Source: Cyclobacteriaceae bacterium
GTDB lineage: Bacteria > Bacteroidota > Bacteroidia > Cytophagales > Cyclobacteriaceae
Assembly: GCA_019694875.1 (NCBI GenBank)
Contig: JAIBBC010000002.1
Coordinates: 558,001-622,000 of the forward strand
DNA length: 64,000 bases
Direction: 5' to 3'
The translations under genes and the position numbers were made by a program. Below are positions 28,663-40,172 of this stretch, piece by piece. Positions within the stretch are counted from its first letter, which is position 1. Each line of letters opens with the position of its first letter. Under the pieces are notes generated by a model. It made no database searches. It was not told where the DNA came from and worked only from the letters and a program-made list of their open reading frames with translations.

Positions 28663-28720
28663 GGGCCCATAGCTCAGCTGGTTACCCCGAATGCTTTCGG
28701 GATTGACTCATAATTCAACT
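28663..28720 (+). pseudogene. Decayed CAT-anticodon tRNA copy with inserted hairpin
   Basis: GGGCCCATAGCTCAGCTGG at 28663-28681 copies the 5' part of the intact tRNA 92 bases downstream. After the D-loop TTA the sequence is replaced by a hairpin, CCCGAA-TGCT-TTCGGG (28686-28701). Then an anticodon arm with the CTCATAA loop resumes at 28704-28718 with one extra base. No T arm or 3' acceptor strand follows. It cannot fold as a tRNA. The stretch 28571-28662 before it shows no gene. Confidence 0.7.
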
Positions 28721-28754
28721 ATGCTGGGTTTTGGTGTTCATAAAGTATATTATT

Positions 28755-28828
28755 GGGCCCTTAGCTCAGCTGGTTAGAGCACTTGACTCATAATCAAGGG
28801 GTCGGGGGATCGTGCCCCTCAGGGCCCA
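28755..28828 (+). tRNA. tRNA with CAT anticodon (elongator Met or Ile2)
   Basis: 74 bases fold fully: acceptor GGGCCCT/AGGGCCC, D stem GCTC/GAGC, anticodon stem CTTGA/TCAAG with loop CTCATAA (anticodon CAT), variable GGGTC, T stem GGGGG/CCCTC (one G-T pair). CCA is not encoded. The T loop reads ATCGTGC rather than TTCGANN, so the 54-58 pair is A-T instead of T-A. The acceptor and positions 8-9 resemble the Ile2 tRNA of E. coli, but sequence alone does not settle Met versus lysidine-modified Ile. A strong terminator follows at once. Confidence 0.85.
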
Positions 28829-28833
28829 CATTA

Positions 28834-39517: not shown

Positions 39518-39548
39518 GTTGCAATCCGCAGTGATTTTTATAGTTTTG
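39518..39548 (+). promoter_or_regulatory. Promoter for tRNA-Cys
   Basis: GTTG at 39518-39521, 19 bases, TAGTTTTG at 39541-39548: a full match to the -33/-7 pattern. Transcription would begin near 39554, about 50 bases before the tRNA. Confidence 0.6.
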
Positions 39549-39569
39549 TGCTGTCGATTTTCGGCAGCA

Positions 39570-39600
39570 TCCTGATCAGCGTATCAGGACGTTTTTTTTT
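39570..39600 (+). terminator. Terminator-like hairpin in the tRNA-Cys leader
   Basis: TCCTGAT (39570-39576) pairs with ATCAGGA (39583-39589) around CAGCGT, then CG and nine T. It ends two bases before the tRNA. It looks like an intrinsic terminator but lies downstream of the best promoter for the tRNA, so it may attenuate it. It could also be a backup terminator for rpsA if the tRNA is promoted otherwise. Confidence 0.65.
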
Positions 39601-39602
39601 AT

Positions 39603-39673
39603 GGTCTCATGGCCGAGTGGCTAGGCAGAGCTCTGCAAAAGCTCCTACAGCGGTTCGAATCCGCTTGAGACCT
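39603..39673 (+). tRNA. tRNA-Cys(GCA)
   Basis: 71 bases fold fully: acceptor GGTCTCA/TGAGACC, D stem GCC/GGC, anticodon stem GAGCT/AGCTC with loop CTGCAAA (anticodon GCA), T stem AGCGG/CCGCT with loop TTCGAAT, discriminator T as expected for Cys (U73). CCA is not encoded. Its 3' part recurs in a tandem array downstream. Confidence 0.96.
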
Positions 39674-39680
39674 CGATAAG

Positions 39681-39706
39681 AAGCTGACTGTTTGGTCAGC
39701 TTTTTT
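39681..39706 (+). terminator. Rho-independent terminator of tRNA-Cys
   Basis: AAGCTGAC pairs with GTCAGCTT around TGTTTG, followed by a T-run and CTTTT. Identical stems recur at 39807-39828, 39933-39954 and 40059-40080 in the tandem array. Confidence 0.93.
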
Positions 39707-40172
39707 CTTTTAATCGCTTTTAAAGAGCTCTGGCTCTGCTTAATAATTTTTGCTCCTACAGCGGTTCGTCCCGATGGTTATCGGGACCGCTTGAGACCTC
39801 GATTAGAAGCTGACTGTTTGGTCAGCTTTTTTCTTTTAATCGCTTTTACAGAGTTCTGGCTCTGCTTAATAATTTTTGCTCCTACAGCGGTTCGTCCCGA
39901 TAGTTATCGGGACCGCTTGAGACCTCGATTAAAAGCTGACTGTTTGGTCAGCTTTTTTCTTTTAATCGCTTTTAAAGAGCTCTGGCTCTGCTTAATAATT
40001 TTTGCTCCGACAGCGGTTCGCCCCGATGGTTATCGGGACAGCTTGAGACCTCGATAAGAAGCTGACTGTTTGGTCAGCTTTTTTCTTTTAATCGCTTTTA
40101 CAGAGCTCTGGCTCTGCTTTACAATTTTTGCTCATACAGCGGTTCGTTTTGATGGTTATGGGGGACTTGAGA
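39707..40172 (+). repeat. 126-bp tandem array derived from the 3' part of tRNA-Cys plus terminator
   Basis: Three full units of exactly 126 bp (39707-39832, 39833-39958, 39959-40084) and a decayed fourth. Each holds a degenerate anticodon-arm remnant (AGAGCTCTG...GCTCC), the variable and T-stem bases CTACAGCGGTTCG, an 18-20 base hairpin with arm TCCCGAT in place of the T-loop AAT, then CCGCTTGAGACCTCG and the tRNA terminator. The acceptor 5' strand and D arm are missing, so no unit is a tRNA. The hairpins are at 39768-39787, 39894-39913, 40020-40039 and, mutated, 40146-40165. Because 126 is a multiple of three, a spurious repetitive frame stays open through it. Confidence 0.92.

Follow-up and report, generated by a model that had tools for sequence, protein, structure and literature searches.

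The 64-kb window (i.e. the whole stretch of DNA that was analysed) contains a single tandem array, located at positions 39661-40163 and detected with Tandem Repeats Finder (period of 126 bp, 4.0 copies, 93% matches, 0% indels). The array adjoins an intact tRNA-Cys(GCA) gene, placed at 39603-39674 by ARAGORN and at 39603-39673 by Rfam, and its first unit starts within this gene, at the 3' strand of the T-stem. The gene is preceded by a promoter-like site, which was judged by the Bacteroidota consensus (TTG-N19-TAnnTTTG). The features of the locus are as follows:

39519-39548, + strand: promoter-like site of tRNA-Cys, Bacteroidota type (TTG at 39519-39521, N19, TAGTTTTG at 39541-39548)
39603-39674, + strand: intact tRNA-Cys (GCA)
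39661-39786, + strand: unit 1 (T-stem and acceptor 3' strands common to the intact tRNA; then terminator and spacer; then anticodon-arm remnant, T-stem 5' strand and palindrome)
39681-39706, + strand: terminator-like hairpin and T run of unit 1 (repeats at 39807-39832, 39933-39958 and 40059-40084)
39724-39739, + strand: anticodon-arm remnant as a small hairpin, AGAGCTCTGGCTCTGC (repeats at 39850-39865, 39976-39991 and 40102-40117)
39752-39768, + strand: tRNA piece GCTCCTACAGCGGTTCG, comprising the anticodon-stem 3' strand, the variable loop and the T-stem 5' strand (repeats at 39878-39894, 40004-40020 and 40130-40146, with one change in each of the last two)
39769-39786, + strand: T-loop palindrome TCCCGATGGTTATCGGGA (further copies at 39895-39912 and 40021-40038; decayed at 40147-40165)
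39787-39912, + strand: unit 2
39913-40038, + strand: unit 3
40039-40164, + strand: unit 4, with the palindrome decayed
40166-40172, + strand: CTTGAGA at the right edge of the array, a probable leftover of the old, displaced 3' end of tRNA-Cys

The leader between the promoter-like site and the tRNA (39549-39601) contains two hairpins, the second of which (TCCTGATCAGCGTATCAGGA) is followed by a terminator-like T run immediately before tRNA-Cys.

Each unit of the array is composed, in this order, of CCGCTTGAGACC (the 3' strands of the T-stem and the acceptor stem), a terminator, a spacer, the small anticodon-arm hairpin, GCTCCTACAGCGGTTCG and an 18-bp palindrome. Units 1-3 are identical to one another at 120-122 of 126 positions, and unit 4 matches them at 112-116 of 126. 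The T-loop triplet AAT is swapped for TCCCGAT[GA]GTTATCGGGA at 39769-39786 and 39895-39912, for CCCCGATGGTTATCGGGA at 40021-40038 and for a decayed form at 40147-40165; AAGCTGACTGTTTGGTCAGCTTTTTT is present in all four units. The pattern CCCGATN4ATCGGG (with at most one mismatch) occurs three times in the window, compared with 0.17 expected, and none of 100 shuffles reached this number. A complete 126-bp unit has no second occurrence in the host genome. An earlier note on this DNA had described three full units and one decayed unit of 126 bp following tRNA-Cys, each of them retaining the T-stem, the 3' acceptor strand and the terminator, with a palindrome in place of the T-loop AAT. Tandem Repeats Finder and the pairwise identities agree with this description; the retained parts were located in all four copies, and the palindrome in three, being decayed in the fourth. 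The further statement that the 5' half of the tRNA is gone is not wholly accurate: every unit holds the anticodon-arm remnant AGAG[CT]TCTGGCTCTGC (39724-39739 and its repeats), which in three of the four units matches tRNA positions 24/25-33. Tandem repeats misassemble easily, but the units differ from one another, and similar arrays are found in other genera and in a chromosome recorded as complete, which makes it highly improbable that the array is an assembly artefact.

Comparison with congeners (DISPLACEMENT) revealed the same tRNA-Cys array in genome G002, with units of 132 bp and another T-loop palindrome, inserted in GTTCGAA|TCC. The anticodon-arm remnant of this genome reads GCAGAGCTCTTTGCTCTGC and is itself a small hairpin. 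A third congener, G009, has no array, and a terminator lies directly 3' of its tRNA-Cys. A similar terminator is located behind the last displaced copy of G002. The DNA 3' of tRNA-Cys in G009 aligns behind the last displaced copy of G002 (score of 61 with the tRNA part excluded; maximum of 29 in 200 letter shuffles), whereas its score against the DNA behind the intact tRNA of G002 is only 29. This argues that DNA probably entered the tRNA gene. Judging from this one comparison of three congeners, the incoming DNA probably provided tRNA-Cys with a fresh 3' end and terminator while pushing the previous ones away. G009 also carries, 152 nt downstream of its intact tRNA-Cys, a palindrome-free 17-nt remnant of the tRNA-Cys 3' end (L055 2440-2456); it is therefore array-free but not free of such events, and does not offer a clean empty site. 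The remnant counts against the idea that every displaced end bears a hairpin. Relatives lacking a hairpin in the matching copies, which the earlier note had named as evidence against its reading, were not found as regards the array (G002 has a hairpin), but G009 has this one hairpin-less remnant.

Two further tRNA-Cys loci were observed. In genome G026 (L056 2341-3314), 11 alternating tRNA-Thr and tRNA-Cys genes are arranged in tandem with a period of 180 bp. In genome G216 (L140 1500-2545), a frame of 272 aa, lipoprotein-like by eye, lies between tRNA-Cys and a displaced, palindrome-bearing 3' end; such insertions may therefore carry other cargo.

A census of the host genome revealed clear partial copies beside 10 of its 35 Rfam tRNA hits (29 loci), a total that may count genes at contig ends twice (Pro, Arg). 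These ten tRNAs are Lys, Thr(GGT), Thr(TGT), two Met, Arg(CCG), Leu(TAA), Leu(CAA), Pro and Cys. By reading, nine of the ten have a palindrome in, or replacing, the D-, anticodon- or T-arm, the displaced ends of tRNA-Lys being without a clear one. A match beside tRNA-Leu(GAG) was taken as a neighbouring tRNA or chance, and other matches of 9-12 nt beside the remaining tRNAs as chance. One of the tRNA-Met cases lies within the window:

28663-28754, + strand: incomplete copy of the 5' part of tRNA-Met, located ahead of the intact gene (palindrome CCCCGAATGCTTTCGGG at 28685-28701)
28755-28829, + strand: intact tRNA-Met to which the partial copy belongs

Copies of tRNA-Thr(TGT) occur at four places about 104 bp apart and contain another kind of palindrome. 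The copies beside tRNA-Leu(CAA) and tRNA-Arg(CCG) follow the same unit plan as the array, with a frame for a GIY-YIG nuclease inside. At tRNA-Arg there are two units of 426 bp, each with a GIY-YIG frame (broken in the second), and the tRNA copy in these units is near-complete, with palindromes in both the D-loop and the T-loop.

We also scanned the genomes of 84,980 species with a pattern consisting of AGCTC and the palindrome, which yielded at least 117 stretches, and 80 loci were analysed. Among the matches listed, 78 of the 80 titles name Bacteroidota or their subgroups, one Chlorobiota and one only a "bacterium". Among the same matches, 50 of the 80 loci have, by position, the palindrome upstream of a tRNA at a distance below 140 bp, although in at least two of these (L180 and L191) the copy is not of the nearby tRNA. 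Alignment (threshold score of 16; some other loci lose sequence at contig ends) assigned 67 of 114 listed sites, in 45 of 80 loci, as partial copies of the nearby tRNA. Of these assigned sites, 65 are upstream of the tRNA, with 3-4 bases of the D-loop replaced, and two are downstream, with the palindrome in the T-loop; the position within the loop is partly given by construction, through the fixed AGCTC, which favours the D-loop, and the fixed GTTCR of a second pattern. Neither pattern determines whether a tRNA is nearby, on which side it lies or how far the match continues past the palindrome. The second pattern (GTTCR and the palindrome) has matches in 15 of 295 genomes of the family, and all T-loop sites scoring at least 16 are downstream of their own tRNA. 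In the assigned cases, 5' copies thus stand upstream and 3' copies downstream of the tRNA. At the assigned D-type loci (45 among the matches listed) the similarity reaches 5-34 nt past the palindrome (median of 12). Sites or copies with no assigned nearby tRNA are present at L138, L139, L142, L144 and L145, and at one site of L141; at L217, where the spacing is 52 bp, derivation from a tRNA is putative.

Two simple rules for the copies were rejected. The retention of both strands of the arm fits the assigned D-type loci, but several Asp and Gly loci lack the T-stem 5' strand. The replacement of exactly three T-loop bases holds in the focal case, but clean insertions between C56 and R57 (standard tRNA numbering) are found in tRNA-Thr(TGT), tRNA-Leu(CAA) and tRNA-Arg.

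Of the 46 listed D-loop loci with at least 60 nt of upstream sequence, 25 have a TAnnTTTG box no more than 60 nt ahead of the 5' copy and one has it in the spacer that separates the copy from the tRNA; none has it on the reverse strand. These 5' copies should therefore be part of the tRNA leader, co-transcribed and processed away. The same distribution argues against the copies being separate transcription units, and so bears on the proposal that the units have been selected as small terminated RNAs (tRNA-like decoys or regulators) with their own promoter, extended hairpin and terminator. The earlier note had offered small terminated tRNA-mimic RNAs as one of its two readings. In agreement with this proposal, the focal unit keeps its terminator, has an AT-rich promoter-like box ahead of GCTCC, and folded better than its shuffles (z of -3.4, 0 of 200) when five stretches were folded in this way. 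Better folds than shuffles were also obtained for the arm of an 80-bp unit (z of -2.5; this unit is described below) and for the T-arm of tRNA-Arg (z of -2.9), and not clearly better ones for the T-arm of tRNA-Thr(TGT) (z of -0.2) and for a tyrT repeat of Escherichia coli (z of -1.3, 21 of 200), the region of which has an annotated RNA, rttR. A weak SorY-like match of the units (40.6 bits, where the gathering score is 111) points the same way, but this resemblance, like those to MicX and other Rfam families, is far under the gathering score and was taken as a coincidence of fold. Moreover, the spacers differ from locus to locus among those read, the palindromes differ between two congeners, and the fourth focal palindrome decays. 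We therefore regard selection as small RNAs as quite unlikely. A terminator in each unit would be explained if the unit serves to replace the 3' end of the tRNA gene, so that a tRNA-mimic RNA need not be invoked.

Frames located between a tRNA and its displaced end were compared with protein families, and all five of those tested matched PF01541 (GIY-YIG). In nine aligned sequences the residues Y, Y-x-G, R, H, E and K are invariant. From the 28 GIY-YIG matches in three genomes of the genus we first set aside six whose open frames measure 463-602 aa; of the 22 short ones left, 12 lie within 500 bp of a tRNA (approximately 1% expected, P of about 5e-19), all on the strand of the tRNA, and the other 10 do not. 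Three of these ten, tandem GIY-YIG genes in G001, alternate with palindromic repeats of the CCTTCGACAAGCTCAGG / GTCATGCTGAGC type about 47 kb from a tRNA (L381; G001:C1:1512500-1515500), and GIY-YIG nucleases may also be tied to palindromic repeats generally.

A sample of the phylum was drawn by similarity to one of these proteins, P0003, with matches listed in 40 of 198 genomes and 29 of 102 genera. We examined 30 loci, one per genome (30 genomes, the host included), of the 57 matches listed. A tRNA lies within 500 bp in 27 of the 30 loci and is absent from this distance in three, in a sample that favours the subfamily of P0003, which itself comes from a tRNA-linked locus. The tRNA would be the target of the adjoining GIY-YIG gene. 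For 24 of 27 tRNAs (L396 and L406, with no tRNA, and L400, with no canonical T-loop, being omitted) a displaced 3' end was found downstream; at L408 the displaced end is not clear. When the measure was confined to the T-loop, a stem of at least 6 bp was present in only 12 of 24 displaced copies. Seven further copies have, by reading, a normal T-loop and a palindrome in the anticodon arm, and the assumption that the palindrome of a 3' copy is always in the T-loop was abandoned. Under a position-blind rule, a GC-rich stem of at least 5 bp was found in 18 of 26 displaced copies (L394-L396 and L406 omitted), compared with 15 and 41, respectively, among 520 random windows and 520 shuffles. Eight of the 26 fail this strict rule. 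Palindromes are visible by eye in the rule-failing loci L397, L411, L412, L414, L415 and L418, and for L414 and L415 the best stem found is one native to the tRNA, which failed the GC requirement.

The clearest example is CP012155.1, a chromosome recorded as complete. On the 5' side of one tRNA-Asn, an 80-bp unit with a D-loop palindrome is repeated 11.3 times, and on the 3' side a 410-bp unit with a GIY-YIG frame and a T-loop palindrome is repeated 8.1 times. Arrays on both sides of a tRNA are also present at L393 and L408. The focal 126-bp units encode no GIY-YIG domain, and the GIY-YIG profile had no match at the tRNA-Cys loci of 17 genomes of the genus (1.5-kb flanks where the contig allows).

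We propose, as a reading that is rather better than an even guess, that the focal array is an ORF-less, tandemly amplified form of elements of Bacteroidota that invade tRNA genes and, in fuller versions, carry a GIY-YIG gene. This proposal builds on the anatomy of the units, the rule for the side of the copies, the link to GIY-YIG genes and tandem amplification in independent genomes. A unit would consist of (i) a replacement tRNA end with a terminator, (ii) a spacer, occupied in fuller versions by a small GIY-YIG nuclease gene, and (iii) a partial tRNA arm closed by a palindromic hairpin. On inserting in a tRNA gene it would restore the tRNA and push the old end away, so that the displaced copy carries the hairpin in, or in place of, the loop of the T-, D- or anticodon arm. 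The nuclease may cut tRNA genes that lack the element, and units would be inserted and multiplied by recombination, the partner being a tandem unit, a circular one or one from another cell. By abolishing the target and disrupting the tRNA fold in the displaced copy, the hairpin may spare the element's own tRNA copy from cutting and from acting as a tRNA. ORF-less units may spread passively by recombination, or by means of a nuclease provided in trans; lacking a nuclease gene, the focal array would count as such a gene-less and passive form. An argument against the cutting step is that the intact adjoining tRNA should be cut too, unless the target includes the native flank. The lack of a nuclease gene in the focal units and at the tRNA-Cys loci of the genus also weighs against the proposal, as do the GIY-YIG genes away from tRNAs, the displaced copies that fail the stem rules and the two stretches whose folds are not clearly better than those of shuffles.

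The distribution of the palindromes themselves bears on a different explanation, in which REP-like palindromes that enter the loops of hairpin DNA are the sole mobile part, and the GIY-YIG genes are separate lodgers near tRNAs. Insertions into functional tRNA arms would be lethal, and the survivors, in chance tandem duplications of tRNA ends, would have been amplified neutrally. The focal palindrome (TCCCGATNNNTATCGGGA) is present in 11 and the G002 palindrome in 6 of 17 genomes of the genus, with no match to the reversed control pattern in either case, and two palindromes of the tRNA copies are thus interspersed families. By reading, 14 of the 53 sites of the focal palindrome in the genus are in partial tRNA copies near an intact tRNA; the other 39 are outside tRNA copies, which counts against the GIY-YIG element reading, and many of these are nested in other palindromic repeats. 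Outside the genus, the focal palindrome is contained in a cobalamin riboswitch (RF00174; L138 1356-1585). These findings, together with the palindrome-free remnant of G009, favour the REP-like explanation. REP elements and their Y1 transposases (RAYTs) provide the precedent, being short interspersed palindromes whose clusters are repeated in tandem with flanking DNA (PMC3733652). Against this explanation stands the fact that most displaced copies examined hold palindromes, of many sequences, despite the tiny target, and that GIY-YIG genes lie between the tRNA and its displaced end and, in several loci, inside the repeat unit. Furthermore, the palindromes palA, palB, CCTGCC..GGCAGG and GTCATTGCGAGG were absent from the flanks (approximately 1.5 kb) of all 12 Y1 transposase loci in six genomes of the genus, and mobilisation by Y1/RAYT proteins was rejected on these grounds. 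The flanks of the focal palindrome, the only one inspected in this respect, are TTCG and CCGC, and so lack the GTAG/CGTC tag of the REP type. The present system differs from REP/RAYT in that no Y1 link was found and in that the palindromes recur in tRNA loops. On balance, we consider palindromes as the sole mobile part to be unlikely, at roughly one chance in a handful.

The earlier note had itself proposed a selfish palindrome within a tRNA remnant. The interspersion of the palindrome family in the genus and the existence, in other genomes, of arrays amplified with tRNA pieces are in line with this. What recurs, on the other hand, is not one palindrome, as the same tRNA loops hold different ones, and what is amplified is a restored tRNA end, to which the fuller versions add a GIY-YIG nuclease gene.

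Integration of integrase-type elements into tRNA genes usually leaves a restored tRNA and a displaced end, both of which are present at the focal locus, and the copies could accordingly be attachment-site remnants of such elements. We think this very doubtful. The units read are only 61-447 bp long and contain no integrase; no recombinase gene is present in the 126-bp units, and none was recognised among the listed frames between a tRNA and its displaced end. The displaced ends mostly bear palindromes, the tandem arrays are regular, the insertion points vary among the D-, anticodon- and T-arms, and 5' and 3' versions occur at one tRNA.

The reading as tRNA-invading GIY-YIG elements has its closest parallel in phages. 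In phage T6, a unit of tRNA-Tyr and segB is amplified in tandem through the action of SegB, a homing endonuclease of the free-standing GIY-YIG type, and phage tRNAs have more homologues of segB in their vicinity than expected (PMC13096335). In the T4/T6 system, as here, a small GIY-YIG gene is placed beside tRNAs and takes part in tandem amplification at the tRNA locus; in the phage this proceeds by recombination, as it would here (PMC13096335). It differs in being carried by a phage rather than a chromosome and in having a full tRNA in the amplified unit, and the available text makes no mention of palindromic loop inserts or restored tRNA ends (PMC13096335).

A bacterial parallel is provided by the 178-bp repeats of tyrT (tyrV) of E. 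coli K-12, which, like the focal array, are arranged in tandem directly 3' of a tRNA, each with a tRNA 3' end. The repeat contains AAGGTTCG, an insert (that of the first repeat begins with ACTC and ends with GAGT) and AATCCTTCCCCCACCACCA, i.e. a T-loop insertion. With the 5' strand of the T-stem, an insert in the T-loop and the 3' end of the tRNA in this order, its plan is that of the focal units. It differs from them in that no GIY-YIG gene is annotated, the insert is longer, with a fold not significantly above shuffles, and there is an annotated protamine-like ORF, tpr. To our knowledge, repeats of the tyrT type have been known as a single locus. As in the 178-bp repeats, a displaced tRNA 3' end whose T-loop holds an insert is present in the tyrT/tyrV spacer of E. 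coli (L389, reverse strand).

A broader possibility, which we put forward tentatively and at somewhat less than even chances, is that these loci together represent an undescribed class of elements of Bacteroidota, with tRNA halves as ends, targeting by a GIY-YIG nuclease, a required hairpin, gene-less followers and the tyrT repeats as kin. Each new unit would bring a fresh tRNA end, and the loop hairpin of the displaced copy would both protect the element and serve as a recombination end. The focal array would be a MITE-like follower, and the tyrT repeats of E. coli would have arisen, as a distant case, in the same way. The titles and abstract beginnings listed from the open-licence part of PMC gave no match for GIY-YIG genes combined with palindromic tRNA copies in bacteria, which is weak evidence of absence.

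If this is true, one process would lie behind many tRNA fragments, hairpins and orphan GIY-YIG genes beside the tRNAs of one phylum, and the long-known tyrT repeats of E. coli would gain a wider setting. The GIY-YIG-driven amplification of tRNA loci shown in phages would extend to bacterial chromosomes. The reading also suggests that the leaders and trailers of tRNA genes undergo fast change.
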